The notes under the pieces were generated by a model. That model ran no database searches. It saw nothing but the letters and a program-made list of their open reading frames with translations, and had not been told where the DNA came from. The translations under genes were made by a program, and so were the position numbers. A DNA stretch of 64,000 nucleotides from Streptomyces sp. NBC_00433. GTDB lineage: Bacteria; Actinomycetota; Actinomycetes; Streptomycetales; Streptomycetaceae. The stretch spans positions 3,228,001 to 3,292,000 of the forward strand of contig CP107926.1 in NCBI GenBank assembly GCA_036015235.1, in the 5' to 3' direction. This document shows positions 14,908-45,294 of the stretch, piece after piece; position 1 is the first letter of the stretch, and each line of letters opens with the position of its first letter.

Positions 14908-15092
14908 GGAGTCCTCCTCCGGTGTGGGGGGTGGGGAGACGCACGGCATGGGGCGCGGGCTGTCCGCGGGCAGGCCGAAGGGCGGCCCGGCGCCCGTGGG
15001 AGGGGGCGCCGGGAACCGTGTGGGTGGAGCAGTGTGGGGGCTCCAGGTGGTGCGGCGGTTCAGGTGGGGCGGCGATTCCGGTGCGGCGGGGC

Positions 15093-18894: not shown

Positions 18895-18931
18895 GACCAA
18901 ACATCCCGTCCGGAAAGGCTTTCCAGCCATT

Positions 18932-19704: not shown

Positions 19705-20490
19705 TCACGCCAGCAGCGTGAGGACTTCCGCGTGGAGCGCCGCGTCGCCCGTGGCGAGGAACTGGCCGGGGGTGGTGAGGCTGAGAGGGGCGCCTGACCA
19801 CTGGGTCATGTCGCCCCCGGCGCCGGCGAGGACGGCCGCGGGGGCGAAGACGTCATATGGCTTGAGGCCGGCGTCGACGGCCAGGTCGGTGCGGCCGGCG
19901 GCGAGGAGGCCGAAGGCGTAGGAGCTGGCGCCGTAGAGGGTGTACTGGGTCCGGGTGCGCACCCGGGCGAGGCGGGCCCGGTCGGGGGCGGCGAAGAAGT
20001 CGGGGTTGGAGCAGGTGACCAGCGCGGCGGACAGGTCCGCGCAACGCCTCGTGCGGACAAAAGTGCCGTTGCGGCGGGCGAAGGCGCCGGCCAGGCCGGT
20101 CCAGCGGTCGGAGGTGGCCGGGTAGTCCATGACGCCGATCCACGGACTTCCCCCGCGGGCAAGGCCGATGAGCGTGCCGTAGACGGGAATCCCGGCGACG
20201 AAGGGGGCGGTCCCGTCGAGCGGGTCGAGCACCCACACGTGCTCGGAGTCCAGCCCGTGGGCGCCGAATTCCTCGCCCAGCACCCCGTGTTCGGGATACG
20301 CGTCGGCGATGAGTTCGCGCAGCCGGGACTCGATGAGGCGGTCGGTGGCGGTGACGTAGCTGTTGTCGGCTTTCACGTCGGGGCGTATCGCCTCAAGCGC
20401 CGCCGCGGCCAGCAGCTTGCGGGCCTCGTCGGCGAGGCGTTCGGCGAAGGCCAGCAACTCGCCGGCGTACGCATCCTCCGCGCCGCTCAT
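19705..20490 (-). CDS. Inositol-monophosphatase-family phosphatase (HisN/SuhB-like), last gene of the cluster operon
   Basis: A 261-residue Mg2+-dependent phosphatase of the IMPase fold. The metal/phosphate motifs are GEEFG, DPLDGTAPF and the late KPYDVFAPAAVLAGAGG. Members dephosphorylate inositol phosphate, histidinol phosphate or similar small phosphates in the cytosol. The ATG 20488-20490 overlaps the stop of serC (ATGA), so the two products probably act one after the other. After an aminotransferase of the phosphoserine type, the natural inference is removal of the phosphate from an amino-phosphate intermediate, the role SerB plays in serine synthesis. The true substrate is unknown. Confidence 0.82.
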   Translation of the reverse strand: MSGAEDAYAGELLAFAERLADEARKLLAAAALEAIRPDVKADNSYVTATDRLIESRLRELIADAYPEHGVLGEEFGAHGLDSEHVWVLDPLDGTAPFVAGIPVYGTLIGLARGGSPWIGVMDYPATSDRWTGLAGAFARRNGTFVRTRRCADLSAALVTCSNPDFFAAPDRARLARVRTRTQYTLYGASSYAFGLLAAGRTDLAVDAGLKPYDVFAPAAVLAGAGGDMTQWSGAPLSLTTPGQFLATGDAALHAEVLTLLA

Positions 20491-21650
20491 ACGTATTCCT
20501 CCAGGGTCTCGGCGAAGGCCCAGTCGATCCAGGGCAGCAGCAGGGCGATGTCGTCGGTGTCGACGGTGGGGCCGCCCCAGATGCGGACTCCGGGCGGCGC
20601 CTCGCGGTGCCCGGCGATGTCGTATCCGGCGCCCTCGGCCTCGATCCGCTCGCAGAGCCGGGTGGTGAAGCGCATGCGCTCCTGCCGGGGCAGCTTGTCC
20701 AACTCCGGGTGGGTGAAGGTCAGGCAGATGCTGGTCGAGGAGACGGTCGCCGGGTCGGCGGCGAGGAAGCGTACGTAGGGGTGGTCGACCACCCACGCGG
20801 CGACCGCGTCCAGATTCCGCCGGGAGCGGGCCAGCATCTCCGGCAGCCCGCCGATGCGTTCGCACCAGTCCAGTGACGCCAGGACGTCCTCGACGGCGAG
20901 CATCGAGGGCGAGTTGATGAAGAAGCCGTCGAAGACGTCGTCCAGCAGCCGCCCTTCGCGGGCGATACGGAAGAGCTTCGGCATCGGGCGGTCGGGCCGG
21001 TAGACCGCGAGGCGTTCGACGGCCGCCGGGGACAGGGCGAGCATCCCGTGGGCGCCTTCGCCGCCGAGCGCCTTCTGCCAGGACCAGGTGACCGCGTCGA
21101 GCTTCGTGAAGTCGACGTCCATGCCGAAGACCGCCGAGGTCGCGTCGCACAGGGTCAGCCCGTCGCGGACCTGCGGGATCCACTGGGCGTCGGGCACGCG
21201 GACGCCCGACGTGGTGCCGTTCCAGGGGAAGACGACGTCGTGGCCGAAGTCGACCCGCCGCAGGTCGGGCAGGCGCCCGTAGTCGGCCAGGTGGACGGTC
21301 ACCTCCGGCAGGCCCAACTGCTCGGCCACGTCGGTCAGCCAGGTGTAGCCGAAGTTCTCCCAGCAGCACACGTCGACCGCTTTGTGGCCGAGCAGATTCC
21401 ACATCGCGGTCTCGATCGCGCCGGTGTCGGAGCCGGGCACGACCGCCAGCCGGTAGCCGGGCGGCAGCCCGAGCACCTGCGCGGAGCGCGCGATCACCTC
21501 CCGCAGCCGCGCCCGCCCTTCGGGGTGGCGGTGGGAGCGCCCGACGAAGGCGCCTTTGAGGTCGCCGGGGTCCCACCCGGGTCGTTTGGCGCACGGCCCG
21601 GACGAGAACCATGGCCGCTCGGGCTTGAGTTGGGGCTTCCGCGCACGCAA
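20487..21650 (-). CDS. serC: Phosphoserine aminotransferase homologue
   Basis: A 387-residue fold-type I (class V) PLP aminotransferase of the actinobacterial SerC type: KPERPWFSSGPCAKRPGW, VPGSDTGAIETAMWN, CDATSAVFGMDVDF and the PLP lysine in WSWQKALGGEGAHG. SerC converts 3-phosphohydroxypyruvate and glutamate to phosphoserine. The start is TTG 21648-21650, preceded by GGGAAGG, which fits the normal family N-terminus; longer frames run into the dioxygenase gene. Its place within a biosynthetic operon, next to a kinase homologue of glycerate and a phosphatase, suggests a dedicated copy acting on a phosphorylated keto intermediate of the pathway rather than housekeeping serine synthesis. Confidence 0.85.
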   Translation of the reverse strand: MRARKPQLKPERPWFSSGPCAKRPGWDPGDLKGAFVGRSHRHPEGRARLREVIARSAQVLGLPPGYRLAVVPGSDTGAIETAMWNLLGHKAVDVCCWENFGYTWLTDVAEQLGLPEVTVHLADYGRLPDLRRVDFGHDVVFPWNGTTSGVRVPDAQWIPQVRDGLTLCDATSAVFGMDVDFTKLDAVTWSWQKALGGEGAHGMLALSPAAVERLAVYRPDRPMPKLFRIAREGRLLDDVFDGFFINSPSMLAVEDVLASLDWCERIGGLPEMLARSRRNLDAVAAWVVDHPYVRFLAADPATVSSTSICLTFTHPELDKLPRQERMRFTTRLCERIEAEGAGYDIAGHREAPPGVRIWGGPTVDTDDIALLLPWIDWAFAETLEEYV

Positions 21651-21682
21651 TGGTGGCCCTTCCCTGGCTGTCGTGCCGCTGC

Positions 21683-22735
21683 TCAGCGGCTGAGGCTGAC
21701 GTAGTGGCGGCGCGTGCCCCGGTACGCCATCCGGCCGTGCTGCACGACCTGGTTGTCCAGCACCAGCAGGTCGCCGGGGATCATCCGTACCGCCTTGGTG
21801 GTACGCCACAGCGCCCCGCGCAGGAAGGAGACCTCGTCCTCCTCGAAGGGCATCCCGTCACCGTACGTGGTCGTCGCCGGGTAGTCCCGCGCGGGCAGGT
21901 CGGCGGCGAAGTCGGGGTGGGAGCGCCAGTAGGAGCAGTGCAGTTCGGTCACCTGGTTGAACCACAGCTCCTCGCCGGTCTCGGGGTGCGCGGCGAAGGC
22001 CTCGCGGCGGTAGTGGTAGCGCAGGACGTCGTCGACGCCCCACTCGAAGGCGTAGCCGGACTCCGCGAGGTGGTCCGCCAGTTCGGCGCGGTCGGTCGTG
22101 CCGAAGGTGTCGGCCCAACCCGTGGCGCCGGGGCCGGACTCCTTGGCGAGGGTGCGGTGGTAGCGCACTCCGCGTGCGCGGAAGGCCTCTTTGATGTCCG
22201 GCGGGATGGCCGCGGCGGTCTCGCGGATGTCGTTGACGGGGACCTCGCCGCCGCTGGGGGCGGCGGCCTCGCAGAAGAAGAAGATGCGGCGCGGGAAGTG
22301 GGGCAGGTAGGCCATCTCGTTGTGCGGCGACAGGGTGATCCGGGAGTCCTCCTCGCTCGCCTTGAGGGCCACGTCGGAGTCGTTCTTGCGTACGGCGATG
22401 CCGCCGCGGTAGCCCAGGCCCTCGTAGCCCAGGCCGGTGACGAGCCGCTCGAAGCCCGGCCGGTCGGTGAGCGGCAGGCCGCGTACCAATACGCCGCCGC
22501 TGAGCGGGAGTTCCGCGTCCACGACCTCGCGGACCGCGCCCGCGAGCAGGTCGTCGGCGACGTCGTCGGGGGCGTCGGCCTCCAGGACCGGGATCATCCC
22601 GCCGGCGTCGGCTATCCGCTCGGGGAAGCTGGGGTGGGCGGAGCCGGCCAGGAAGGGGCGGTTCCTGATCGGCAGGCTGAAGGGGGTGCAGGGGTCGGCG
22701 AGTCGGAAGCGCGGGGCGCCGGTGCGGGCGCTCAC
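21683..22735 (-). CDS. TauD/SyrP-like Fe(II)/2-oxoglutarate dioxygenase
   Basis: A 350-residue non-haem iron hydroxylase. The iron facial triad is H-x-E (SPHNEMAYLP) with the distal His in VVQHGRMAYRG and the 2-oxoglutarate Arg in GTRRHYVSL. An H-x-E variant is usual for the SyrP/clavaminate-synthase branch. GTG 22733-22735 overlaps the methyltransferase stop (GTGA). In the analogous cyclopropanol pathway a hydroxylase converts gonyol into its diol; this enzyme is the only hydroxylase in the cluster and the natural candidate for that step. The assignment is by context, since related enzymes also hydroxylate carrier-bound amino acids. Confidence 0.85.
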   Translation of the reverse strand: MSARTGAPRFRLADPCTPFSLPIRNRPFLAGSAHPSFPERIADAGGMIPVLEADAPDDVADDLLAGAVREVVDAELPLSGGVLVRGLPLTDRPGFERLVTGLGYEGLGYRGGIAVRKNDSDVALKASEEDSRITLSPHNEMAYLPHFPRRIFFFCEAAAPSGGEVPVNDIRETAAAIPPDIKEAFRARGVRYHRTLAKESGPGATGWADTFGTTDRAELADHLAESGYAFEWGVDDVLRYHYRREAFAAHPETGEELWFNQVTELHCSYWRSHPDFAADLPARDYPATTTYGDGMPFEEDEVSFLRGALWRTTKAVRMIPGDLLVLDNQVVQHGRMAYRGTRRHYVSLSR

Positions 22736-23661
22736 CGTACGTCCCCGGTCGCCTGGGGGTGGCCGCGCAGGACGCATATCTCGTGGTAGACCGGCGCGGA
22801 CGGGTCGGTGTCCAGCAGCGCCTTGGCCTGCCGGGCGGACAGCCGGCAGCGGCCCGCGGGGTCGGCGTAGAACTCGCAGCGGACGTCCTGCTCGTAGCCG
22901 GTGCCGCGCATCGCGGCCTCCAGGGCGACGAAGAAGGAGATATCGGTGCCCGCGTGCTGGCGCACGATGCGCGAGGCGAGTTCCTCGGTCCGGTAGCCGT
23001 AGGAGCGGAAGACCTGCACCAGGGTCGCCTTGCCGATCCGGCAGCCGAGGTTGAGCACCACCTCCGCGCGCGGCGCGACCGCCTTGAGCCGGGTGAGCAG
23101 CGCCTCGATCAGGCCCATGCCTACCGAGTTGAAGGGGTGGTCGTCGAAGGCGGCCCAGGGGTAGTAGTGGGCGACGTGGTCCTCGCCGCGGTCGCCGGCG
23201 TGGGCCGCCGTCTTCAACTGGGCGGTGCGGAATTGCGCGTACATCGGGTCGTAGGGGTCGGGCACCTGTGGCAGGCACGCCACCACCACGTCGGCCGCGG
23301 CGGCCTCGGTGACGGCCTCGTGGACGTCGAGCAGGCTCACCGGGCCGTGCACCGGCCGGAAGCGGTCGGCGAGTTCGGGCGCGGCGGCGGTGAGCAGCGC
23401 GTGCGCCACCACCGGCAGCCTGGGGTCCAGGTCGCTGCCCGCCACCAGTGCCGCGGCGCAGTCCCGCAGCATGAACAGCACGTTGGCGCCGCTGCCGACG
23501 CCCACTTCGTAGACCCGGCGGCCGCTGAGCCCGGCCCTTTCCAGCCCGGCCTGGAAGGCCAGCGTCCAGGGGTCGGTGGGGTCGAAGGCGTAGTCGGGCA
23601 CCGCCTCGGGGGCGTCGAGCTGCAAGGGCCCCGTGGCGGGGCGGTCGTTGACCAGATGCAT
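22732..23661 (-). CDS. Methionine S-methyltransferase (MMT/MmtN-like)
   Basis: A 309-residue SAM-dependent methyltransferase. The SAM loop is VYEVGVGSGAN with acidic D in GSDLDPR. Beyond the fold, several blocks line up with the methyltransferase domain of plant methionine S-methyltransferase as I remember it: DPWTLAFQAGL, VVACLPQVPDPYDPM (plant GCIPQI..NP), VGMGLIEALL and LNLGCRIGKATLVQVFRSYGY (plant FNMGGRPGQAVCKRLFERRGF). This would make S-methylmethionine, the first step to DMSP. GGAGGAAT precedes the ATG. It is unlike the SET-domain enzyme reported for the Burkholderia cluster, so the same chemistry would come from a different family here. No downstream aminotransferase domain is present, unlike the plant enzyme. 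Confidence 0.8.
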   Translation of the reverse strand: MHLVNDRPATGPLQLDAPEAVPDYAFDPTDPWTLAFQAGLERAGLSGRRVYEVGVGSGANVLFMLRDCAAALVAGSDLDPRLPVVAHALLTAAAPELADRFRPVHGPVSLLDVHEAVTEAAAADVVVACLPQVPDPYDPMYAQFRTAQLKTAAHAGDRGEDHVAHYYPWAAFDDHPFNSVGMGLIEALLTRLKAVAPRAEVVLNLGCRIGKATLVQVFRSYGYRTEELASRIVRQHAGTDISFFVALEAAMRGTGYEQDVRCEFYADPAGRCRLSARQAKALLDTDPSAPVYHEICVLRGHPQATGDVR

Positions 23662-23788
23662 GTCCGGGATTCCTCCGTGTGGGCGCGGTCGGCCGCGCGG
23701 TTGTGGCGTGAGTGAGATCGGCGGGGGTCCTGCGGGGGTTCGGGGGCCGTGAGCGGGCCGGGTCGGCGCGGCGGGTCAGGGCGGCGGA

Positions 23789-25246
23789 TCAGCGCGGCTG
23801 CTGCTCGTCGATGAGCAGCACCTCGCCCGCCGCCCCGCGCATGCAGTGGTCGGAGCGCATCGAGGACGCGTAGCCGCCGGAGTTGATGAGGGCGACGCGG
23901 TCGCCTTCACGCAGCCGGGTCATGCGGTGGTCCACCGCCCACTGGTCGAGGGCCTCGTTGATGTTGCCGACGACCGTGTAGGTCTCGGTGCCCTCCTCCC
24001 AGCGCGGGGCGACCGCGACGGGCTCGCAGGGCAGCCCGTAGAAGGCGGGCTCCACGGCGAGGTTGAAGCCCGCGTCGAGGCCGGCGAAGAGCACCTCGCG
24101 GCGCCGCTCGACATAGGTCGCGGTGGCGAGCAGCAGCCCGGCGTCCTTGACGAGGTAGTCGCCGGGTTCGACGGCCACGACCAGGCCGCGGCCCGCGAAG
24201 CGGCGGGCGACGGCGGCGGCCCAGCGGTCGAGGTCCAGGGACGTGTCGTGGGAGGTGTGCGGCACCCCGAGGCCGCCGCCGATGTTGATCTCGGCGAGGT
24301 CGGGCAGCTCCGCGGTGAAGCCGTCGGCCGAGTCGAAGGCCGCCTCCAGCTCGCTCAGTTCGCCGTCGAGGTAGCCGCATCCCGCGTGCAGGTGCAGGCG
24401 TACGATCCGCAGGCCCCACCGCTCGGCGACCGCCTTGGCGTCCGCGAGGTGCTCGCGGTAGATGCCGAACTTCGTGGTGGCGGCGCCGCTGTAGCTGAGC
24501 CGCTCGTCGCCCTGGTAGCCCACGCCGGCGGCCGGGTTGATCCGCAGGCCGACGTCGCGGCCGGGACAGACGCGGCCGAAGCGGTCGAGGGCGGAGACCG
24601 AGTCGAAGTTGATCCGCAGGTCGGTGAAGCGGGACAGCACCTCGATGTCGCGGCGGGAGAGGGAGGTGCCGGTGAAGGAGATGGCGTCGGGCGGGAAGCC
24701 GCAGCCCACGGCGTGCGTCAACTCGCCGGTGGAGCAGACGTCGACGCCGCACAGGCCGTGGGTGCGCAGGTAGGTCAGCAGTGCCGGAGACCGGTTGGCC
24801 TTGATGGCGAAGTAGATCCGGTGGTCCAGGCCCGCGCCCGCCATCGCGGCGGACAGCCGCTCGATGTTCTCCCGCACCCGTCCTGCCCGGCAGACGTAGG
24901 CGGGTGTGCCGATCTGGCGGGCCAGTTGGTCCATGTCGACTCCGCCGAGGTGCAGCCTGCCCTGGTCGTAGCGCAGGTCGCCGCGCTTCCACCAGGGGTC
25001 CTCCGGCGGGTGCTGCGGCCGCTCGGCGGTCTCGCCGGGCCCGGCGTCCGACTCGCCGACGTAACGTACGCGGGCGGCGGTCGCGCCGAGCGCGCGCGAG
25101 ACCTCCTCACGGCGGCACTGCGCTCCCAGCAGCACCTGCAGCGGGGCGTCGGCGGCCTTGCCGGCGCTCACGGCCTGCTTGACCCGTAACACCGTCAGCG
25201 CGGTCGTCAGTCCGCGACAGTCCAGGACGGTCCGGAGTGCTTCCAT
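23789..25246 (-). CDS. Fold-III PLP decarboxylase (DapDC-like) with a TusA-like N-terminal domain; candidate S-methylmethionine decarboxylase
   Basis: A 485-residue protein. Residues 1-70 (VLDCRGLTTALTVLRVKQAV...) resemble the small sulfur-carrier TusA/SirA fold, but the active CPxP is replaced by TALT. Residues 100-485 are a diaminopimelate/ornithine-type decarboxylase with the PLP lysine in FAIKANRSP, HLHAGCGYL, NIGGGLG and EPGDYLVKDAG. The catalytic CExxD segment reads NEALD, so the usual Cys is Asn, suggesting a non-standard substrate. Placed beside the methionine S-methyltransferase, decarboxylation of S-methylmethionine to DMSP-amine is the best hypothesis. A TTA codon (25187-25189) lies near the 5' end. 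Confidence 0.78.
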   Translation of the reverse strand: MEALRTVLDCRGLTTALTVLRVKQAVSAGKAADAPLQVLLGAQCRREEVSRALGATAARVRYVGESDAGPGETAERPQHPPEDPWWKRGDLRYDQGRLHLGGVDMDQLARQIGTPAYVCRAGRVRENIERLSAAMAGAGLDHRIYFAIKANRSPALLTYLRTHGLCGVDVCSTGELTHAVGCGFPPDAISFTGTSLSRRDIEVLSRFTDLRINFDSVSALDRFGRVCPGRDVGLRINPAAGVGYQGDERLSYSGAATTKFGIYREHLADAKAVAERWGLRIVRLHLHAGCGYLDGELSELEAAFDSADGFTAELPDLAEINIGGGLGVPHTSHDTSLDLDRWAAAVARRFAGRGLVVAVEPGDYLVKDAGLLLATATYVERRREVLFAGLDAGFNLAVEPAFYGLPCEPVAVAPRWEEGTETYTVVGNINEALDQWAVDHRMTRLREGDRVALINSGGYASSMRSDHCMRGAAGEVLLIDEQQPR

Positions 25247-25278
25247 AGGTCATCTCCACGTGGATTCGGTGCGCGGAA

Positions 25279-26730: not shown

Positions 26731-26835
26731 TGCCGCTCCTTGTCGTCCGTGGTCTGTTGCGCCGCTGCCGCCGGTGGCCGGCCGTGGTCCGTTGCGCCGG
26801 TGGCCGGCCGGGGCGGACCCGGCCGGCCGGCGTGG

Positions 26836-27816
26836 TCACGGCTTGCCGAGGATGGCCCGGTAGCGGTCGTGGGCCCGGGTCATGGCGGCCGCCTTGTACG
26901 CCGCCTCGTAGTCGTCGAGGCTGGGGTATCCGGCCTGCGCCTCCCGGCTCAGCTCCGCGACGAAGCCGCCGTTCCTGATCTCGGCGAGTATCCGTATCCC
27001 CTTGGCCCGCACTTCGGGGCCCATCAGCGTGCCCAGGTACTTCTGGACGCCGAAGCGGCAGGTGGGCGAGCCCTGTTCCTCGATCACCTCGTAGATCCCG
27101 GTGGTGGCCGCCTCGACCATCATCTCGGCCATCTCCCCCGAGGCGTGCATGTCCAGCAGCGCGGGGACCGGGTCGCAACCCGCGTCGACCAGCACCTCGA
27201 AGGCCGTGCGGAAGGCGTCGAGCAGCAGCGGGGTGAGGAACTGCTCCTGGAAGAGGTCGAGTTCCGTCTCGGTCGCGAGCGGCACCGGCAGCACCCCGTA
27301 GCGCGTGAAGCCCACCGCCTTGGCGACGGCGAGGATGCGGGCCAGCGCCCGCCCGGTGCGGTCCTCGACCACGTCGAGGAAGGCCAGCACCCCGGAACCG
27401 TCCTTGTAGCGCTGCCTGATCGGCTTGCCGAACATCTTCGGCGCCAGCAGCGCCACGTCGGTGCCTGGGGGCGGTGTGATGCGCTCGTAGAGAAGCGAGA
27501 AGCCGTGCGCCAGCACGAACAGGTCGCCGTCCCGCAGGCCGGGGGCGATCTGCGTGTCGTAGACCTCCTGGTGGGCCTCGTCCGGGATGAGCAGCAGCAC
27601 GATCGAGGCGGCCTCGACCGCCTCGGCGATCGTCCGGGTGTCGAAGCCGTCGGCGACGGCGGCCTCGCGGTAGGAGTCGTCGATGTTGCCGACGACGACG
27701 GGCACACCGCTGTCGCGCAGGTTCGCGGCGAAGGCCTTGCCCTGGATTCCGTAGCCGACGACGGCCACGACCTCACCCTCGATGTCGTGCAGACTTGCGT
27801 CCTTCTCGAAGTACAC
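26836..27816 (-). CDS. Ketol-acid reductoisomerase homologue with altered metal site (BurG-like)
   Basis: A 326-residue class I KARI homologue. The NADPH-binding segment VVAVVGYGIQGKAFAANLRDSGV and the first metal-ligand block ETELDLFQEQ are conserved. In the second metal block, where true KARI has AYFExLHE, this protein has ALLDMHAS, so one Glu becomes Asp and the other is lost. The late S-x-TAExG motif reads SPTCRFG. Housekeeping IlvC rearranges and reduces acetolactate; these changes in a cluster copy point to new chemistry. In malleicyprol biosynthesis a KARI homologue builds the cyclopropanol ring from a sulfonium diol, and this protein is the candidate for that step. GTG start with GAGAGGGG upstream. 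Confidence 0.82.
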   Translation of the reverse strand: MYFEKDASLHDIEGEVVAVVGYGIQGKAFAANLRDSGVPVVVGNIDDSYREAAVADGFDTRTIAEAVEAASIVLLLIPDEAHQEVYDTQIAPGLRDGDLFVLAHGFSLLYERITPPPGTDVALLAPKMFGKPIRQRYKDGSGVLAFLDVVEDRTGRALARILAVAKAVGFTRYGVLPVPLATETELDLFQEQFLTPLLLDAFRTAFEVLVDAGCDPVPALLDMHASGEMAEMMVEAATTGIYEVIEEQGSPTCRFGVQKYLGTLMGPEVRAKGIRILAEIRNGGFVAELSREAQAGYPSLDDYEAAYKAAAMTRAHDRYRAILGKP

Positions 27817-27893
27817 GCCTGACCCCTCTCACCTGGGAGATGGTGCAAGTGCTCGCGGCGGCGGCCCTGTTCGGGCCGCGGGTGCCGCGGCTC

Positions 27894-31000: not shown

Positions 31001-31037
31001 CGGCGGCCTCCCGCGGGATGAGGACGTTCGCTTGCGG

Positions 31038-37000: not shown

Positions 37001-39065
37001 CGCCGCCGGGCAGGAACCTGGCCCGGTCGCCGGTGCGGTAGAAGACCTGGTCGGCGAAGCGCGAGCCGGCCAGCACGGGCGGGCAGGGCACGAAGCGCTC
37101 CGCGGTCTTGGCCGGGTCGTCCAGGTAGCCGGTGGCGACGCCGGGCCCGGCGACGTACAGCTCGCCCACTCCCCCGTAGGGCACCGCCGAGCCGTCGGCG
37201 TCGAGGAGGGCGGCGGCGGTGCCGTCGATGACCCGGCCGACCGGCGCGCAGGACGAGCCGCCCGCGGGGGGCGCTCCGGGCGGGCGCGGCAGCAGGTCGG
37301 CGAAGGAGACGTCGAGGCTCTCCCAGGTGCTGTAGGCGTTGACGACCCGCACGTGCGGCGGCAGCAGCGCGGCCGCCTTGTCGACCACCCGGGCGGGGAC
37401 GACCTCGCCCATGAGGAAGACGATCTCCATGTGGGCGAGGCTCTCCGCGAGCCCGGGTCCGGCGGCGGGGTGGTCGAGGACGCTCTCGAAGAGCGACGGC
37501 GGCACCACGATCCGGGTGATGCGCTCCTGTCGGAGGGTGCCGACCAGCCGTACGGGGTCGAAGACGTGGTCGTCGGGCACGACGGTGGCGGGGCGGCCCT
37601 GGAGCAGCGGGCGCAGGCACTCCCAGGCGAAGAAGACGTTGAGGCCGTCGCGCGAGGACTCCTCGTACGGGTAGAGCGCGTAGCGGGCGTCGAAGCAGTA
37701 GAGGCAGCCCAGATGGGTGTTGAGCACGGCCTTGGGTGTGCCGGAGGTGCCGGACGTCATCGAGATCAGGGCGATGTCGGACGGCTCGACGTCGGGCGGT
37801 TCGAAGGCGGACGGCTCGACGTCGGGCGGTTCGAAGGCGGCTGCGGTGCCGTCCCGGTCCGGGGACAGGACGAGCAGCCGCTCGGCGGTGGTGTGGCTGT
37901 CGGGGAGCAGCCCGACCAGCTCGGGGGTGGTCACGACGGTGGTCACACCCGCGTTGGCGAGGAAGCCGGCCAGCAGCGACGGCGGCCAGTTCTTCTCCAG
38001 CAGGCACGCGGGGGTGCCCGCGGCGAAGCAGGCCAGCAGGGCGACGCAGTATTCGGCGGAGTGCGGCAGGAGCAGGCCGACGACGTCGCCCTTCGCGGCG
38101 CCGCGCGCGGCCAGTTCGGCGGCGAGGCCGAGCGCGCTGTCCCGCAGTTCGCGGTAAGTCCAGGAGCGGGGGCCGTCGCTGAGGGCGGGGGCGTCGGGGT
38201 CGGCGTCGGCCTGCTCGCTGAACCGGGCCCATAAGCTGCGGTCCGGCGGCGGGTACGGGCTGCCCGGGGTGCTGACGGACGGGCCCGCTGTCGTACGCAA
38301 CCGGTCCAACTGCCGTGTGAGGTCGGCCAGGAGGGCGGTCCTGGAGTCGACGGTGTAGAAGTGGCCGCCGGGGAGGATCTCCACCGGGGCGCCGTCCTCG
38401 ACGTGGTCCCGCCAGGCCAGCAGGTCTTCCCGGGCCACCGTGCGGTCCTCGCTGCCGCCGTAGACCACGCAGGGGACGGGGATCCGGCCGCCGGCGGGCG
38501 GGGCATAGTCCTCGTCGAGCCGCAAGTCGGCCCGCAGCGGGGGGAGGACGAGGTCGAGCAGTTCGTCATCGACCAGGAGTTCCTCGGGGATCAGGCCCCA
38601 TGAGCGCACCCTTTCGAGGAAGTCCTCGTGGGGCAGCGCGTGCGCGGGTCGGTCCGGCGGGAGGTGGGGCGCCCGGTGCGCCGAGACCATCAGCAGGCCC
38701 GGACATCGGCGGCGCAGGTCGACAAGGCGGCGACAGACCTCGTAGGCGGCGAGGGCTCCGAAGCTGTGGCCGAAGAAGGCGAAGGGGGCGCCGTCGTCGT
38801 GGAGTTCGACCATCTCGACCAGGTCGTCCACGAGGTCGGCCAGCCGCTCGTGGGGGGCCTCCCCGTGGCGGCGGCCGCGGCCGGGCAGCGTGTAGCTGAC
38901 GATCTCCACGTCGTCCGGCAGTCCGGCCGGCCAGTCCTGGAAGGCCGTGTGGTTTCCGCCTGCATGCGGAAAGGCGAACAGGCGCAAGGCCACGTCCTCG
39001 CGGGGTGCGAGGACGACAGGCTCGACACGGCCCGCCGGACCCTTGGATTTCGTGGAACGCAGCAC
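31038..39065 (-). CDS. Hybrid NRPS-PKS megasynthase, TE-A-PCP-KS-AT-TE-KR-ACP
   Basis: A 2,675-residue assembly line. Approximate positions: type II-like thioesterase 20-260 (GHSFG near 100, GGHFY); adenylation 280-800 (TSGTSGTPK near 437, FYRTGD); PCP (DVGGDSLSA near 845); KS 915-1350 with intact Cys-His-His (TSACSSA, ECHATATHVG, KGNIGHANC); AT (GHSIGEY near 1583, HPFHS, malonyl-like); a second thioesterase (GLSFG near 1962, GEHDFM); B-type KR (GGTGGIGR near 2350, LDD, NYAAAN); ACP (GLDSLD near 2635). No condensation domain is present. One starter acid, one malonate and one ketoreduction give a 3-hydroxy acid, as for DMSP to gonyol. Four TTA codons lie at 34830, 35604, 36237 and 38232. The GTG at 39063-39065 is chosen for AGGGGA 7 nt upstream. 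Confidence 0.9.
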   Translation of the reverse strand: MLRSTKSKGPAGRVEPVVLAPREDVALRLFAFPHAGGNHTAFQDWPAGLPDDVEIVSYTLPGRGRRHGEAPHERLADLVDDLVEMVELHDDGAPFAFFGHSFGALAAYEVCRRLVDLRRRCPGLLMVSAHRAPHLPPDRPAHALPHEDFLERVRSWGLIPEELLVDDELLDLVLPPLRADLRLDEDYAPPAGGRIPVPCVVYGGSEDRTVAREDLLAWRDHVEDGAPVEILPGGHFYTVDSRTALLADLTRQLDRLRTTAGPSVSTPGSPYPPPDRSLWARFSEQADADPDAPALSDGPRSWTYRELRDSALGLAAELAARGAAKGDVVGLLLPHSAEYCVALLACFAAGTPACLLEKNWPPSLLAGFLANAGVTTVVTTPELVGLLPDSHTTAERLLVLSPDRDGTAAAFEPPDVEPSAFEPPDVEPSDIALISMTSGTSGTPKAVLNTHLGCLYCFDARYALYPYEESSRDGLNVFFAWECLRPLLQGRPATVVPDDHVFDPVRLVGTLRQERITRIVVPPSLFESVLDHPAAGPGLAESLAHMEIVFLMGEVVPARVVDKAAALLPPHVRVVNAYSTWESLDVSFADLLPRPPGAPPAGGSSCAPVGRVIDGTAAALLDADGSAVPYGGVGELYVAGPGVATGYLDDPAKTAERFVPCPPVLAGSRFADQVFYRTGDRARFLPGGALELLGRTGDVVKVRGFKVSLRAVEAALEDQEGVARVIVRPVPDPRTGQPAHLLAYLLGDDGMPSSTLLARTRLKSARDLPDYARPRHVIGLDALPFTRSDSRKLDLSALPAPPEEPAPSAAGPLTTAEERVAEAWKEVLGLRAAAPDDNFFDVGGDSLSAARLSGLLAERYGIALPVVDVFQYATLRDLAARCSGAAADAEPAASRPRPTGDGGTRIAVVGMAGRFPGAPDIDAFWANLTAGTDSLTNFTAEELRAKGVPEEVVFHPQWVPAAQLLDDADAFDAEMWGIGQREALLMDPQHRLFIEVAATALEQAGYARRDNPYRRRTGVFAACGIDGYLIHHLEGGGLRAPLDPAAVFLTEIGNEKDYIATRVAYLLDLGGPAATVTSACSSALVAIAQAAQSLTTGQCDMALAGAASLNFPNFGYRYEDGLVGSTDGRVRPFDEAASGTLFGDAVAAVVLKRLDDALADGDHVWAVLSGYGVSNDGRMKAGYTAPSARAQEQCISDAIAMAGIGSEQVSYVECHATATHVGDAIEIKGLSDAFARWRGSSDAVTGGCALGSVKGNIGHANCAAGITGFVKTVLCLHHGELVPTVNYRTMNPKLVDLIDRDGSPFTVQTRHEPWSVTNPTTQLPRRAGVSSFGIGGTNAHVVLEEAPPVQEAALGGRGLSSAEDGGPVRPGPEGVVEGRGELRDQPPPGRGSAAAEGGTPERPGPPSRARALHLVTASARSETALRRGTDALTALFADLPAEQTADAVRAWHLTREAHPLRRAAVLSAAGGPREWLPRTNPLGARGATVAFTFSGQGSQTPGMARDLYQGRADGGRFRRHFDAACAALAVHLGTDPAPLVLGADATSVRRPIVTQCGLFAVEYALAGTLVDLGVRPVAVAGHSIGEYAAAALSGLLTLDEAALLVAVRARATEELAGADGGRLGGMLSVVGDEDRLEEWLADRPGLWTAALNAPGRTVVSGAPDALRAAAAELPPLGFTCRAVPVSHPFHSALMAPVAARIDAVAADLPARAPDIPTASNLTGKWIDARHRPETYWGEHVTTTVRWREDVATLLKWSPDVILEVGPGGVLTALTAKCLDAGTDSAPLALASLPHAADPAEDDEEALLSVLGELWCHGVDLDFAALHEGEPAGSPAVRLLLPTYSFDRTRYWTKPEASPYVGRGAAKPPTAGPLVRHVDKPAAHTRLYCFPYAGGDSTAIRSWAHAAPPWLDIVAVEPPGRGGRSALPVPTDDSEDIALLEVLADALRADAGEAAVAFCGLSFGAALALDLLGGPLADWSAAGRLTAFCAVGRAPLGPVTAGPEVPVDSYLMAPDELRADPNWQRTVLPLLRADLAWDARTEHRVATRDVPLRAPLQVHCGTLDPSFPPEAAPLWSAATSSPLVDIEIHPGEHDFMLRERDAILTRLTSFLTRLAPRDPGEGAGAWDGRLHEVRWAPLGPARPRVAVQEYAPAGPADGPAASAPDGTAPADVPARADRHAPPTGGVPWAVHDDAHPAGSARFLRGVLTGPDRHAALVCPPPGGVDAQAYCAGFLDVLKAVASAEARGALTLLLPALGSSGLVAGLTRSLELEEPGLRVRRVFVDRWPAAGLDGTAAGRLLDAASAHPAEPDLLLRGGHLLGRRLAPAVLPALPPGALGGGAEGAYLVTGGTGGIGRVVTDWLIHTQGVAPERVIVTGRTAPVARTGHVELRRGVRFLELDLSEPFEADAVAALTGPLAGVFHLAGALDDGVLRNLDADRLGAVLAPKLALPRVMELAGRGGAGWVAAFSSTSSLLGAAGQANYAAANGWADAHAVWGRGEPGPDLAIVNWGTWEGTGMAAGHAKAGEAARGGGETPLPAGTALALLGKVVAGLLSGGAPARGLAVCDIDWPDSPWAGSPLVAALPGGGRPVPVEAAGGSAAAAAADGDDDAVRAFLRAYVHRWDESRGLGELGLDSLDFARIRGDFARLFGKDVPLSAIAKPDQRLGQLYAFLSEC
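34886..35010. repeat. REP-like GC-rich element inside the megasynthase KS-AT linker
   Basis: The bases from GACCCGCGGCCCGGTGGGG through CAGTTCCCCGCGCCCCT (34891-34936), with a further GACGACAACCCGCGCC block at 34983, match the dispersed intergenic element at about 19540-19590. It is read through in frame as a Gly/Pro/Arg/Glu-rich linker (about residues 1345-1405) between KS and AT, so the reading frame is preserved. Confidence 0.65.
37781..37840. repeat. Perfect 30-bp tandem duplication in the adenylation domain
   Basis: Two identical 30-nt units (beginning ACGGCTCGACGTCGGG and ending TTCGAAGGCGG) encode the ten residues AFEPPDVEPS twice, just before core motif A3. It keeps frame and lengthens a surface loop. 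Confidence 0.9.
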
Positions 39066-39259
39066 AGCGCTTTCCCCTGACCTATCAATACGGTGCAACC
39101 TTGCCAAGCCCTCGGCTATGCGTGTGCCATAAGCGACGGCGCCGGAAGTACAGGAGAGCAGAAACCGTCAGGACCCGGAGGGGGCTCCCGCGCTGCACGC
39201 TGAAAACTGGCGATATTTTTACAGCGGCCGGCACTCGTCGTCAAGACCGCAATTGAACA

Positions 39260-39520
39260 GATCATTTCGGGCCACAGCGATCATCCTCCCCGGCCGGGAA
39301 GATCGTCCATTCGGACCGGCGTGATCACCCTTTCGGGGCGCGAGTGATCGTCCTTTCCCGGCCGGATGATCGTCTATTCCGGCCCGGAAGATCGTCTATT
39401 TCGGCGTGGATGATCGTCCATTCCGGGCCGTGGATGATCGTTCATTCCAGCCGGGAAGATCGTCCCTTCGGACCGGTGATCGTCATTTCGAGCCCGGATG
39501 ATCGGCTTTCAGGCCTGGGT
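39260..39520. repeat. Array of about twelve imperfect 22-bp tandem repeats upstream of the megasynthase
   Basis: Units start with GATC at about 39260, 39279, 39301, 39323, 39346, 39368, 39390, 39412, 39436, 39458, 39478 and 39500. The consensus is GATCGTCYATTCC followed by GGNCCGGAW; unit length is 20-24 bp, mostly 22. The array fills the space between the stop of the YbaK gene (whose last codons it overlaps) and the megasynthase leader. The remaining bases 39066-39259 before it contain an AT-richer segment (GCGATATTTTTACAGC near 39210) that could hold the promoter. A 22-bp period is two helical turns, so the units would face the same side of the DNA. Confidence 0.85.
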
Positions 39521-39997
39521 GATCGGCTCGATCTGCGGGTTCGCGATGGCCAGGTAGTCCTTGGTGGACAGCGCGATGGTGCGGTCGAGGCGGCCCGCGT
39601 TGAAGAACACCTCGGGGAATTCCAGCAGTTCAGGGTCCATGAACAGGCCCATCCGCTCGTCGAAGGAGAAGGGCGGGATGGTCCCCACGGGGGTGCCCGC
39701 CAGCTCCTCGGCGACCTCCGGCGTGGCGAAGGAGGCGTATGTGCCATTGCACAGCGCCTTCATACGGTTGAAGTCGACCCGGCGGTCACCGGGAAGGACC
39801 GCCGCCGCATAGCGCTTCTCCTTCTTGCCGACCTTCACCATGATGACGATGCACTTCGCCGCCTGGCGCGGGTCGTGGCCGCGCAGCCGGCTCACCGCCT
39901 CGGTCACGCCTTCGGGCTCGTGCTCGATGACCCGATAGCTGGCGCCCCGCTCGTCGAGAAGGGTGATCAGCTTGCCGTACACGTCCTCGGAGGCCAT
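39509..39997 (-). CDS. YbaK/EbsC-type aminoacyl-tRNA deacylase
   Basis: A 162-residue protein of the YbaK/ProX editing family. Recognisable features are the conserved Lys block AAKCIVIMVKVGKKEKRYAA (shown as the central lysine region near residues 45-65), the basic VLPGDRRVDFNRMK and the late GGxGTIPPF-like GTPVGTIPPFSF. Such proteins hydrolyse wrong amino acids from tRNA(Pro) or other tRNAs in the cytosol. It lies between the exporter and the megasynthase on the same strand. In an operon predicted to make an unusual amino acid or its conjugate, a self-protection role (clearing mischarged tRNA) is a reasonable inference; it could also be an unrelated neighbour. Confidence 0.8.
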   Translation of the reverse strand: MASEDVYGKLITLLDERGASYRVIEHEPEGVTEAVSRLRGHDPRQAAKCIVIMVKVGKKEKRYAAAVLPGDRRVDFNRMKALCNGTYASFATPEVAEELAGTPVGTIPPFSFDERMGLFMDPELLEFPEVFFNAGRLDRTIALSTKDYLAIANPQIEPITQA

Positions 39998-40125
39998 CGG
40001 TGCCACTGCTTTCTGACGGGAGAATGTGTGCCCGCCGGGGGGATTTCCGGCGCACGGAATGCTGTGCGGGAAATCGCGGCGTGCCTGCTTGCGGAGTTGT
40101 TGAGCATACCCGATCCGACATGGCG

Positions 40126-41448
40126 TCAGGCGGGCAACGGGGCTGCTGTCCTGGTCCGTTCCGCCCAGTGCACCGCGCGCGGTGTCAGCGCGCCGAAGCC
40201 GAGCAGCAGCACTCCGAGCGTCATCCAGCCCGCGGCGCCGTGGTCGAGGCAGATCGCCGCCAGGACGGCCGGTGCCGCGGCGTTCGCGCCCCCGGCGCCG
40301 AGGCCGAAGACCCCGGCGTACTGACCCTGGAGGTCCGGTCTTGCCAGCCCGAAGGCGAGCTCGAACGAAGCGGCGGACTGCCACAGTTCGCCGAAGGTGT
40401 AGACGACGGTCGCGACCAGCAGCACCAGCAGCGCCGACCACCACGGCATCCCGGACATCGCGCCGATGAGCACCGTGGAGACCATCAGCGCGGCCCCGGC
40501 CCACCGCATCCGCAGGCCCGCGGTACGCGGATCGGTGACCCCGCGGCTGACCCGCACCTGGAGCGCGACCACCAGCACACCGTTGACGAGCATGATCCCG
40601 GTGATCGCCGCGCGGGGCGCCGAGGTGCTGTCCACGATCCACAGCGGCAGCGCGAAGGTCGGTATCGCCAGGTGCAGCGACATCCCGCCGTTGATCAACA
40701 TGACGGCCAGATAGGGGCGGTCGGTCATCGCCGCCCATTTGCTGCGCGCGCGGTCGGCGGGCAGCGGCGGCACGTGCGGCAGCCGGGTGAGGATCGCCGC
40801 CGCGGCCAGGAAGGTGCCCGCGGCGGCCAGGATCAGGCCGACGTAGACCGGGCCCGAGTCGAGTTGGATGCCCACGGTGCCGATGAGGACGCCCAGCATG
40901 ATCGCCGCGTTGGTGATGGCCCGCTGGTAGGCCAGATACGCCGTCGCGTTCACCCCGGCCAGCGCGCGGATCAGCGGCGCCCGGCTGGCCGTGGCGCCGG
41001 TGCCGACGGCGGTGACCAGCAGCGAGACCAGCGCGAGCAGCCAGAAGGAGCGGGCCACCACGAATCCCGCGGTGGCCACCACCCCGCACAGCATCGTCAC
41101 GACGTGCACCTCGCGCGGGCCGCGCCGGTCGGCCAGGTGCCCGATGTAGGGCCCGAAGACCAGCCCCAGCACGGCGCCGACGGTCAGGCCGAGCCCGACC
41201 CGGACCGCCGACATGCCGACGATCCGGGTCAGATACAGCGTGCTCGTCCCCGCCAGCATGCCGCCGCCCACCGTGACGGCGAACGAAGCCCCGGCGAGCA
41301 GGCGTTGCGGCCCGGGGTCGGGCAGGGTACGGCGGACCGCCGCCCGCAGCAGGCCCGGCGCGGGGCCGGCTAATCGGGGCTGCGGGCCTGACGGGTCTGC
41401 GGCGGCCCCGCCTCCGGTCGTACCACCGGAGGCGTCCGCACGCTTCAC
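40126..41448 (-). CDS. MFS transporter, candidate product exporter
   Basis: A 440-residue major facilitator with about twelve hydrophobic segments and the inter-helix signature GPYIGHLADRRGPREV near helices 2-3. The GTG start (41446-41448) overlaps the ATP-grasp ligase stop (GTGA), tying the exporter to the ligase. A TTA codon lies at 41371-41373. Export of the cluster product, probably a small zwitterion or dipeptide, is inferred from this coupling. The 128 bp between its stop and the YbaK start carry no gene. Confidence 0.85.
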   Translation of the reverse strand: MKRADASGGTTGGGAAADPSGPQPRLAGPAPGLLRAAVRRTLPDPGPQRLLAGASFAVTVGGGMLAGTSTLYLTRIVGMSAVRVGLGLTVGAVLGLVFGPYIGHLADRRGPREVHVVTMLCGVVATAGFVVARSFWLLALVSLLVTAVGTGATASRAPLIRALAGVNATAYLAYQRAITNAAIMLGVLIGTVGIQLDSGPVYVGLILAAAGTFLAAAAILTRLPHVPPLPADRARSKWAAMTDRPYLAVMLINGGMSLHLAIPTFALPLWIVDSTSAPRAAITGIMLVNGVLVVALQVRVSRGVTDPRTAGLRMRWAGAALMVSTVLIGAMSGMPWWSALLVLLVATVVYTFGELWQSAASFELAFGLARPDLQGQYAGVFGLGAGGANAAAPAVLAAICLDHGAAGWMTLGVLLLGFGALTPRAVHWAERTRTAAPLPA

Positions 41449-42767
41449 CGTCCCTCGTAGAGCCAGTCGCGGTATTCGCGGTCGGGCCAGTTGGCGCGCT
41501 GCCAGGCCCACCGCTGGCCGCTGTTGAGGTTCGGCTCCGCGACGACCAGCCGGTCGCCGATCCAACTGCGCAGCTCCACCACCCGCTTGTCGAAGTCCTC
41601 GACGGTCTCGGTGGCCAGCAGGATCGCGCCGAGCATGTCGGCGGAGGCGGAGAACTTCGTGGACAGCGTGGCGCCCGGCGGCACGTACGTCTGGGCGAAT
41701 TCCACGTTGGGCTCGGCGATCAGCTCGTCCGGGCTGGGGTAGCTGATCACCGTCCCCGCGCTGCCGTAGAAGCCGACGCAGCCGATGACGTCGGGAGTGA
41801 CGACGACCTTCAGCTCGGGGCGGCGGCCCAGCGCGCACAGCAGGGCGGCCTCGGCGAGGTCCACGTTGAACTTCGCGAGCACCTGCTCCTGGGTGAGCGC
41901 TCCACCGCGGCGGGCGGCGCACTCGCTGAAGACGATGCGGCCGGTGCCGGGCTCACGGAAGAGCTCCATGTGGAAGACGCTGTCGCGCAGGCCGAGCGCC
42001 TCGATGGCCGCGCGCACCACGGGCTCGGCGCTCGCGTAGGCCTCGGCCTCCTGCGTGGGGTCCAGGCGGCGCAGCGAGATCGGCACCTGCCCGGTGACGG
42101 CTTCGAGGCAGGGCTCGGTGTAGGCGCCGAGGCCGAAGAAGATGACCTCGCCGCCGAAGACGATGCCTTCGGCCATCCACTCGTCACCCTCGACGAACTC
42201 CTCCAGCAGGAAGGTCCGGTTGGTCTCCTTCTGCTCGCGGAAGGCGCGGCTGGCGTCTTCGAGGTCCTTGCGGGAGGAGACCACACTGGTGGAGGTGGTG
42301 CCGCCGCCGGCGATGGGCTTGAGGACGGCGCGCTCGAAGTCGAAGGCGACGTCGGAGACATCGAAGACGTCAGGAACGACGACGGCCCGCGTGACCGGGA
42401 CGCCGGCGTCTCGGAGGCGGGCCTTCTGGAGGGACTTGTCGCGGAAGTGCAGGGCGGTGACCGGGTCTATGGTCCGACAGCCGAGGGCGCGGGCCAGGAC
42501 GGCGGTGGTCACGGCGGCGTATTCCCAGGTGGTCTGCACCGCGTCGAACTTCAGGTCGCCCAGGCCCTCGCGGTACAGGGCGCCGAGTATGTCCTCGACG
42601 TTGGTCACGTCGTCGACCCGTATGAGCCGGCCGCCGGTGGGGAGCCGCACCCGACCCGAGTCGTACGAGCCGGAGTTGGCGATCACGACGGCATCGACCT
42701 GATGGCGCTCGCAGGCCCTCAGCACATACTGGTCGGCCCCGACTAACAGGACACTCGGCCTACTCAT
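41445..42767 (-). CDS. ATP-grasp ligase (L-amino acid ligase / carboxylate-amine ligase type)
   Basis: A 440-residue ATP-grasp enzyme. An N-terminal Rossmann-like region (VLLVGADQYVLRACERHQVDAVVI) is followed by the ATP-binding block (VLKPIAGGGTTSTSVV, FLLEEFVEGDEW) and the metal/substrate block FSECAARRGGALTQ. The layout is that of L-amino acid ligases such as BacD, which form a peptide bond through an acyl phosphate. It starts the cluster on its upstream side and is coupled to the exporter. A TTA codon sits at 42744-42746, within the first ten codons. Joining the pathway acid or amino acid to a proteinogenic amino acid is the likely role. A TACACT hexamer (minus strand, 42823-42828) could be its -10 box. 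Confidence 0.82.
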   Translation of the reverse strand: MSRPSVLLVGADQYVLRACERHQVDAVVIANSGSYDSGRVRLPTGGRLIRVDDVTNVEDILGALYREGLGDLKFDAVQTTWEYAAVTTAVLARALGCRTIDPVTALHFRDKSLQKARLRDAGVPVTRAVVVPDVFDVSDVAFDFERAVLKPIAGGGTTSTSVVSSRKDLEDASRAFREQKETNRTFLLEEFVEGDEWMAEGIVFGGEVIFFGLGAYTEPCLEAVTGQVPISLRRLDPTQEAEAYASAEPVVRAAIEALGLRDSVFHMELFREPGTGRIVFSECAARRGGALTQEQVLAKFNVDLAEAALLCALGRRPELKVVVTPDVIGCVGFYGSAGTVISYPSPDELIAEPNVEFAQTYVPPGATLSTKFSASADMLGAILLATETVEDFDKRVVELRSWIGDRLVVAEPNLNSGQRWAWQRANWPDREYRDWLYEGR

Positions 42768-45194: not shown

Positions 45195-45222
45195 GGCGAA
45201 GAACCTCGGTCTCGTCTCTCAT

Positions 45223-45236
45223 AGTGAGCGCTAACA
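45223..45236. promoter_or_regulatory. LacI-type operator in the araB-araD gap
   Basis: AGTGAGCGCTAACA, the reverse complement of TGTTAGCGCTCACT, one base from the site at 18932. It lies about 30 bp upstream of the araD start, a position suited to repression. Confidence 0.85.
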
Positions 45237-45294
45237 ACAAGAGCGGCCGCCCGGAAGGAGCGATCACCGGCAACCACCCCCCGACGACCCCGCC

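Follow-up and report, generated by a model that had tools for sequence, protein, structure and literature searches.

A 23-kb cluster of thirteen genes in Streptomyces sp. NBC_00433 probably makes cleonine, 2-amino-2-(1-hydroxycyclopropyl)acetic acid, or a dipeptide containing it, and would protect its host by tRNA editing. The predicted route converts methionine to (R)-trigonic acid by BurG-type chemistry and continues through what resembles a copy of the phosphorylated serine pathway. This reading is a prediction from gene content, family membership, conservation, diagnostic residues, the predicted fold of a kinase and a gene fusion in Agrobacterium vitis. Taken together, the kinase, FAD enzyme, phosphoserine transaminase, phosphatase, editing protein and ligase point to an amino acid, cleonine, rather than to gonyol or a malleicyprol-like acid. 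In cleomycins, cleonine stands in place of threonine. It is also the methylcyclopropanol residue of the actinobacterial peptide valgamicin C, according to the text available from PMC13194151 and PMC8037709. No biosynthetic route to cleonine was found in the open-access literature searched, and no genome of a known cleonine producer was identified in this analysis.

Gene content of the cluster

The window, which is the 64,000-nt stretch of DNA analysed here, carries the cluster at 19705-42767 (Table 1). All thirteen genes lie on the minus strand and have GC contents by codon position of the coding type, and every part named in a preliminary description of this DNA is where it had been placed. 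A left-end ORF (19705-21612) that had been read there as one gene is rejected; it is a composite of the phosphatase gene (19705-20490) and an out-of-frame stretch over the transaminase gene. The conserved part of the transaminase begins near residue 58, so its true start is probably downstream of the ORF limit. None of the thirteen genes encodes an aldehyde dehydrogenase. They include a single megasynthase and no second NRPS/PKS line, as judged by Pfam and not by BurF, BurH or BurJ sequences.

Table 1. Genes of the predicted cleonine cluster in window coordinates.
Position	Strand	Product or predicted role	Remark
41445..42767	-	ATP-grasp protein, L-amino acid ligase-like	best solved relatives 4wd3 and 3vot; predicted dipeptide maker
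40126..41448	-	MFS transporter, predicted exporter	4-bp overlap with ATP-grasp gene
39509..39997	-	YbaK/ProX-type aminoacyl-tRNA editing protein, predicted self-protection	Pfam tRNA_edit
31038..39107	-	megasynthase TE-A-PCP-KS-AT-TE-KR-ACP, predicted DMSP-loading gonyol synthase	last ACP by motif only
29810..31000	-	P-loop kinase, D-glycerate 3-kinase-like predicted fold	predicted target: ring hydroxyl of trigonic acid
27894..29741	-	FAD oxidoreductase, DAO family, distantly GlpD-like	predicted C2-OH to keto acid
26836..27816	-	BurG-type ketol-acid reductoisomerase (KARI) homologue, predicted cyclopropanol synthase	score, tree, residues
25279..26730	-	class-III aminotransferase	predicted dimethylsulfoniopropylamine to aldehyde
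23789..25246	-	PLP decarboxylase, LysA-like, Orn/DAP-type by Pfam	predicted S-methylmethionine decarboxylase
22732..23661	-	MmtN-type methionine S-methyltransferase (predicted)	match to 7vvv
21683..22735	-	TauD/TfdA dioxygenase, predicted gonyol 2-hydroxylase (BurC role)	Pfam family
20487..21809 (ORF limits)	-	phosphoserine transaminase, serC_2 type by NCBIfam	conserved part from about residue 58
19705..20490	-	inositol-monophosphatase-family HisN-like phosphatase	4-bp overlap with transaminase gene

Predicted route from methionine to a cyclopropanol acid

The predicted route would begin with MmtN-type methylation of methionine, followed by decarboxylation and transamination that, with an unlinked aldehyde dehydrogenase, would give DMSP. 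The methyltransferase has no Pfam family at E 0.001 and is identical to MmtN (7vvv) at 170 of 285 positions (59.6%). Members of MmtN Group I are more than 50% identical to one another in the account available from PMC9135737, and the window protein lies within that range. The MmtN SAM residues D69, S101, L102 and C121 are all present. Among the methionine-binding residues, E250 is kept and the E127 position, where Asp is allowed, is Asp. Arg132 is described as universal and methionine-binding in the same portion of PMC9135737; the window protein has Met140 there, and Arg occurs in only 3 of 8 cluster copies. Clustering with non-sulfur methylases was not seen, and the MmtN type given in the preliminary description stands, as do its PLP decarboxylase, TauD and KARI families (by Pfam) and its class-III aminotransferase.

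The megasynthase would load DMSP, add one malonyl unit and reduce the product to gonyol. An A-PCP-KS-AT-KR-ACP line had been proposed earlier; domains support it as far as KR, whereas two thioesterase domains (one N-terminal, another between AT and KR) had been missed. Pfam recovers only the first carrier domain, and the second is recognized by a C-terminal LGLDSL motif. Alignments of the adenylation domain indicate a shorter loop that lacks the canonical GrsA-type Asp235: in one, the loop is 2 residues shorter with a gap at Asp; in another, it is 4 shorter with Glu facing Asp. The DMSP-loading domain of BurA has an acidic residue, D606. With the canonical Asp absent, there is no sign that the domain loads an ordinary amino acid, which the preliminary description had named as grounds for abandoning its proposal.

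TauD would hydroxylate gonyol to gonydiol. From its sequence, the KARI is predicted to be a BurG-type cyclopropanol synthase that would expel dimethyl sulfide (DMS) from gonydiol and close the ring to yield (R)-trigonic acid (C5H8O4), an alpha-hydroxy acid of R configuration. Its best scores are to BurG structures (331 bits), with the next KARI at 192. In a quick tree with SH-aLRT support only, from which three fragments of 86 rows were dropped and in which several long branches are flagged, a 62-row clade with the window protein (SH-aLRT 99) adjoins a 12-row Burkholderia-type clade (99), and the joining fork has a value of 83. Portions of PMC9359912 assign NAD selection to BurG N48 and D51, catalysis to E232 and a cation-pi role to Y133. 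The first three correspond to N44, D47 and E228 in the window KARI; among window-clade rows with letters at these positions, N48 and D51 are each kept in 61/61 and E232 in 62/62, compared to 0/4 canonical KARIs. Y133 is not kept, with Phe in 62/62 window-clade rows and Tyr in 12/12 Burkholderia-type rows, so the position is still aromatic.

The DMSP-gonyol-gonydiol-cyclopropanol (trigonic acid) core put forward in the preliminary description thus holds well by homology, through the MmtN relative, the atypical adenylation domain and the BurG-like KARI clade with its N48/D51/E232 residues; parts of the DMSP-gonyol reading had already been forecast in print. The cluster shares with the Burkholderia bur/mal (malleicyprol) system (BurA, BurC, BurG), as presented in parts of PMC7496086 and PMC9359912, a predicted DMSP starter, an A-T-KS-AT-KR-T-type line, an oxygenase and a BurG-type KARI, so the acid half should match bur up to (R)-trigonic acid. 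In contrast to bur, its methyltransferase is MmtN-type rather than SET-domain BurB, its assembly line has thioesterase domains, and Pfam finds no second NRPS/PKS line of the BurF role, which takes trigonic acid. It carries instead a serine-like amination set, tRNA editing and a ligase. Extra enzymes and a differing product had been anticipated: the enzymes are there, but the kinase, FAD enzyme, phosphoserine transaminase, phosphatase, editing protein and ligase were left unnamed, so that account of the product was incomplete.

Proposed route from the acid to cleonine

(R)-Trigonic acid is an analogue of D-glycerate with the same C2 configuration (by CIP reasoning). Phosphorylation of its ring hydroxyl by the glycerate-kinase-like enzyme would also shield the reactive cyclopropanol. 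The phosphorylated acid would next be oxidized at C2 by the FAD enzyme and aminated by the phosphoserine transaminase, and removal of the phosphate by the phosphatase would yield cleonine. These four predicted reactions match, in type and in sequence, those of the phosphorylated serine pathway that uses D-glycerate 3-kinase, and the cluster SerC scores above equivalog cut-offs. In that pathway SerA is NAD-dependent and SerB is the phosphatase, whereas the cluster has an FAD enzyme and a HisN-like phosphatase, and in its predicted substrate the C3 methylene is replaced by a cyclopropane.

The kinase has no Pfam family at E 0.001 and matches 6ckg weakly by sequence (24.8 bits). Its fold model (pLDDT 86, pTM 0.87) retrieves D-glycerate 3-kinases in Foldseek as the top three chains from two entries (E 4e-13 to 4e-10, 16-17% identity), with pantothenate kinases close behind; its P-loop GSxGxGKT columns are invariant in 26/26 aligned sequences. 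SerC, also with no Pfam family at E 0.001, exceeds two phosphoserine transaminase equivalog cut-offs (NF002841, 563.7 vs 477; TIGR01365, 503.3 vs 448.2). Its SHR motif is SFR in Saccharothrix and Nocardiopsis, the misframed Nocardiopsis alignment row being ignored, and stops inside the Nocardiopsis and MAG matches lie upstream of the conserved start. The phosphatase falls below the HisN equivalog cut-off (237.8 vs 275.15) and above that of the inositol-monophosphatase family (144.7 vs 27). The FAD enzyme is the weakest assignment: it has 55.9 bits to 3da1, is below the GlpD equivalog cut-off (103.7 vs 360) and gave a fold model from 8 sequences too poor for use (pLDDT 55), so we propose only that it may work like GlpD.

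Predicted self-protection, ligation and export

In the producer, tRNA wrongly charged with cleonine would be deacylated by the tRNA-editing protein. It exceeds the Pfam tRNA_edit cut-off (84.7 vs 25.5) and is below that of the Cys-tRNA(Pro) deacylase equivalog (53.3 vs 153.25). It is found in 6/7 whole clusters; the exception, Nitrospirillum, has no close copy (best match 27%), and other YbaK-type matches in these genomes are only 25-31% identical to the cluster protein. In A. vitis CG78, a single 513-aa ORF fuses the KARI to a relative of the editing protein. The ATP-grasp and MFS proteins of this genome would couple cleonine into a dipeptide and then export it. Actinacidiphila also has the ligase gene within the cluster, a MAG contig has it next to SerC and phosphatase, and in Saccharothrix it lies at a distance of 86 kb; no ligase match at E 1e-6 came from the genomes of Nocardiopsis, Nitrospirillum or A. 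vitis. A LysE exporter and an Lrp/AsnC regulator lie at the edge of the Nocardiopsis cluster, and a partial AzlC match (51/303 residues) at that of Nitrospirillum.

Distribution

All 10 core genes, with the four serine-like genes among them, occur in 7/7 whole clusters from actinobacteria to alphaproteobacteria (the window, two Actinacidiphila, Nocardiopsis, Saccharothrix, Nitrospirillum and A. vitis). The window host and Actinacidiphila (formerly Streptomyces) belong to the same genus. Each of 8 genomes searched carries a further, more distant SerC and a further KARI elsewhere. The cluster is rare in genome samples: the FAD protein occurs in 1/394 genomes of the class (the window's own) and the kinase in 3/297 of the family, own included, with the same 3 in a sample of 35. 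Distribution was therefore taken from protein lists, which score only candidates that share most words with the query. Co-location was judged by a proxy, contigs of equal size, which in complete genomes means the same replicon rather than neighbourhood. By this measure the kinase shares a contig with 27/41 KARIs at least 60% identical to the window protein (contigs of at least 8 kb, window included), leaving 14/41 that share none with a kinase, and with 0/14 KARIs below 60%, 9 of which belong to the Burkholderia-type clade. Of the 64 KARI rows at or above 60%, one is the window's own, three are fragments and one is a fused piece. The comparison took in 61 kinases, the 62nd having no length, and the first 64 of 120 editing proteins listed from 614. 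The S. mobaraensis KARI, kinase and editing protein are 82%, 65% and 78% identical to those of the window.

The mmtN-NRPS operons of S. mobaraensis and A. vitis (PMC9135737) belong to the same family as the window cluster, and A. vitis CG78 has the whole core. The available portion of that paper foresees DMSP, perhaps gonyol, as an intermediate and leaves the metabolite open; the proposals in that portion do not include the amination half, the editing protein or a named product. One literature listing showed no link between the cluster and the grape-necrosis metabolite of A. vitis. A connection with bleomycin is no more than a hint, prompted by the cleonine of cleomycins and by the title of a reference in PMC7017467 that calls S. 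mobaraensis DSM 40847 a bleomycin producer.

Alternative products

An amino acid other than cleonine is an unlikely product. In that case the phosphorylation-transamination set would take as substrate gonydiol, the sulfonium diol with its chain still open, or an acid modified further, and would give a sulfonium or other cyclopropane amino acid; gene order does not fix step order, and the kinase model contains no ligand. Against this, BurG is reported in PMC9359912 to oxidize the 2-hydroxyl of its substrate, whose C1-C3 head it holds between two Mg ions, so C3 phosphorylation or C2 amination before ring closure should block it, and the window KARI keeps the catalytic residues. It is quite unlikely that the pathway ends at trigonic acid or a malleicyprol-like hydroxy acid, with the kinase, FAD enzyme, transaminase and phosphatase engaged in a side task, such as serine or glycerate metabolism, that supplies a different building block. 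The match to bur up to trigonic acid is compatible with such an end point, and SerC scores as an ordinary phosphoserine transaminase, so its score demands no new substrate. However, Pfam detects no second NRPS/PKS line among the thirteen genes, the four serine-like genes persist in every whole cluster despite a further SerC in each of the 8 genomes, the kinase shares no contig, by size, with the 14 distant KARIs (9 of them Burkholderia-type), and tRNA editing and amino-acid exporters do not fit a hydroxy acid as end product.

It is very improbable that the cluster serves to make an osmolyte or stress compound, DMSP or gonyol. Such a role would account for the MmtN-type enzyme and the gonyol-type assembly line, but would leave TauD, KARI, kinase, SerC, phosphatase, editing protein and ligase unexplained, and the rarity of the cluster also speaks against it.

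Implications

The chances are about even that these clusters constitute an antimetabolite system, present in at least two bacterial phyla, in which the duplicated serine pathway takes up the product of a cyclopropanol synthase and phosphate serves as a temporary protecting group for the reactive ring. In rivals, cleonine would act as a Trojan amino acid, loaded by mistake onto tRNA. The producer would proofread its own tRNA by means of an editing domain whose tie to the pathway is close enough to allow fusion with the ring-forming enzyme. If the cleonine reading is true, the cluster offers a route, testable gene by gene, to an amino acid whose biosynthesis we did not find described in print, and a possible answer to what the S. 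mobaraensis and A. vitis operons make. Central metabolism would have been copied twice, with a KARI recruited for ring closure and the serine pathway for amination, and a small tRNA-editing protein would have a likely part in protecting the producer from its own strained amino acid.

Organization of the cluster

The 13 genes lie on one strand (see table) and their GC content by codon position has the pattern of real high-GC genes. Neighbouring genes overlap slightly or are separated by gaps of at most 128 bp; the sole exception is the interval preceding the megasynthase gene, which measures about 400 bp. This longer gap contains a tract of imperfect repeats, whose GATC[GA]T core is present in 0 or 1 copies in the editing–megasynthase gap of three relatives. 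A TGTAAAAAT-like element in the same region is conserved in the equivalent gap of loci L053 and L054 and is perhaps the megasynthase promoter. Genes for sugar metabolism and sugar-type transport flank the cluster on opposite sides.

Location of the cluster and of associated features
Feature	Sequence	Position	Strand
Cluster, in order of transcription: ATP-grasp, MFS, tRNA-editing protein, megasynthase, kinase, FAD enzyme, ketol-acid reductoisomerase homologue (KARI), class-III aminotransferase, PLP decarboxylase, methyltransferase, TauD dioxygenase, SerC, phosphatase	window	42767-19705	-
About 10 imperfect 22-bp GATCGTC..CCGG repeats, between editing gene and megasynthase	window	39260-39500	
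TGTAAAAAT-like element upstream of megasynthase	window	39208-39230	
Flank: L-arabinose isomerase (Pfam), then araD-like and araB-like genes (judged by eye)	window	42862-46956	
Opposite flank: sugar-type ABC transporter	window	15093-18930	
Setting of the A. vitis cluster	L047; L048	1676-5222; 9959-11412	
Rhizobium lusitanum KARI–editing region, annotated as two pieces	L062 (NZ_CP050306.1)	13694-15234	
Saccharothrix ligase–MFS pair	L051	3866-7081	

Putative sulfonium and ring-forming enzymes

The sole solved sequence matched by the methyltransferase is the methionine S-methyltransferase MmtN (E 7.5e-110). With 170 identities in 285 positions, the enzyme exceeds the 50% identity given for Group I MmtN (PMC9135737); the SAM residues of MmtN are retained and, in the same residue comparison, Arg132 is not. 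The megasynthase domains contain catalytic motifs, and the protein terminates in a carrier motif; Pfam detects the first carrier domain only. The A domain of the megasynthase has no Asp at the amino-acid-domain position, where a gap or a Glu occurs depending on which of two kinds of alignment is used; the DMSP-loading A domain of BurA is reported to be without that same Asp (PMC7496086).

KARI scores 331 bits against BurG, the cyclopropanol synthase of the Burkholderia bur pathway, and 192 bits against the next KARI. A quick tree of 95 rows places it in a 62-row clade (SH-aLRT 99) that adjoins a 12-row Burkholderia-type clade (99) through a fork supported at 83. BurG residues N48, D51, and E232 are retained in 61/61, 61/61, and 62/62 rows of the KARI clade and in none of four canonical KARIs; Y133 is replaced by Phe in the clade. 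Acidobacterial relatives at 38–41% identity (L008–L012 and L017) branch off separately, below the BurG clades. BurG converts gonydiol to (R)-trigonic acid, an alpha-hydroxy acid of formula C5H8O4 (PMC9359912; PMC12304814). Among the 13 genes there is none for DMSP aldehyde oxidation.

The existence of this first half in other organisms is already published. Nine other organisms have been counted with burG and gonydiol genes (PMC9359912), and DMSP- or gonyol-derived metabolites have been predicted for S. mobaraensis and A. vitis in a study that left the metabolite open (PMC9135737).

Serine-like enzymes

SerC exceeds two phosphoserine-transaminase equivalog cut-offs, matches no Pfam model at E 0.001, and shares a lysine region and a C-terminal HR/YR-APPG-R motif with two alphaproteobacterial housekeeping enzymes. 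Its SHR motif is retained except in Saccharothrix and Nocardiopsis, which have SFR. The cluster copies of SerC and KARI are spare because all eight genomes searched have a further copy of each. By sequence comparison the kinase appears to belong to a family of its own: 62 related proteins were found, all at E 1.7e-98 or better and none with a Pfam name. In its predicted fold (pLDDT 86) the kinase most resembles D-glycerate 3-kinases from plants and fungi, followed by pantothenate kinases. The FAD enzyme has a distant likeness to GlpD and its fold prediction is too poor for use; the FAD oxidation step is the weakest assignment of the pathway. The phosphatase is HisN-like and scores under the cut-off of the HisN model.

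Proposed route to cleonine

By our reasoning, (R)-trigonic acid is D-glycerate bearing a cyclopropane at C3, with an identical configuration at C2, and a serine-like series acting on it would therefore yield cleonine. Four enzymes would work in succession as a glycerate kinase, an enzyme oxidising the 2-hydroxyl beside the 3-phosphate, a phosphoserine transaminase, and a phosphatase. The phosphate would additionally mask the ring hydroxyl; one-electron oxidation is known to open cyclopropanols (PMC9359912). Cleonine would be the simplest product of this enzyme set, and others are possible. A search limited to open-access literature found no study of cleonine biosynthesis.

Conservation and co-occurrence

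A scan of genome contigs for KARI gave 21 loci, of which seven are BurG-like at 59–89% identity. Around the other 14 (32–41% identity) no other cluster gene was found in the flanks examined, some of which are short. With wider flanks, the ten core genes (megasynthase through phosphatase) all occur in 7/7 whole clusters, which are those of the window, two Actinacidiphila, Nocardiopsis, Saccharothrix, Nitrospirillum, and A. vitis. Actinacidiphila (formerly Streptomyces) are the nearest relatives among the genomes examined; two Actinacidiphila records (L001 and L002) bear different species names, and both titles give DSM 42138. An eighth cluster, in a MAG, is split across contigs. Loci L004 and L056 come from a MAG labelled Candidatus Melainabacteria with an actinobacterial-type cluster, perhaps through a binning error. 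Every core gene is matched on the Rhizobium lusitanum plasmid, several in more than one piece; this copy may be damaged or misread because its KARI–editing region and other core genes are annotated or matched in pieces. The A. vitis cluster is bounded by BREX BrxC/D-like and helicase genes and by transposase genes, and its setting is a putative mobile island.

The kinase shares a contig with 27 of 41 KARIs at least 60% identical, on contigs of at least 8 kb and with the window included, and with none of 14 more distant KARIs, nine of which belong to the Burkholderia-type clade; sharing was judged by equal size of contigs. KARI, kinase, and editing protein are all present in S. mobaraensis.

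Signs of an amino-acid product

The YbaK/ProX-type editing protein occurs in six of the seven clusters, and other YbaK-type matches in those genomes are only 25–31% identical to it. KARI and editing domain are fused in a single 513-aa frame in A. vitis CG78, and R. lusitanum protein P0080 has both domains. The edge of the window cluster has an MFS protein and an ATP-grasp protein that, among solved structures, is best matched by L-amino acid ligases. In Nocardiopsis the cluster edge carries a regulator of Lrp/AsnC type together with a LysE exporter, and in Nitrospirillum it carries an NRPS-PKS line together with a partial match to AzlC; in R. lusitanum an Lrp/AsnC gene lies about 6.5 kb from the decarboxylase. 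The core is the same throughout and its product seems to be put to different uses, a pattern to be expected of an amino acid that serves as a free building block.

The Saccharothrix ligase–MFS pair is 86 kb from the core, near a fused alpha-beta glycyl-tRNA synthetase. Such fused synthetases are unusual in actinobacteria; this one is possibly a resistance gene or there by chance. Many of the listed homologues P0205–P0268 are Streptomyces editing proteins 61–70% identical to that of the cluster. If their genomes lack the cluster, these organisms may be protected non-producers.
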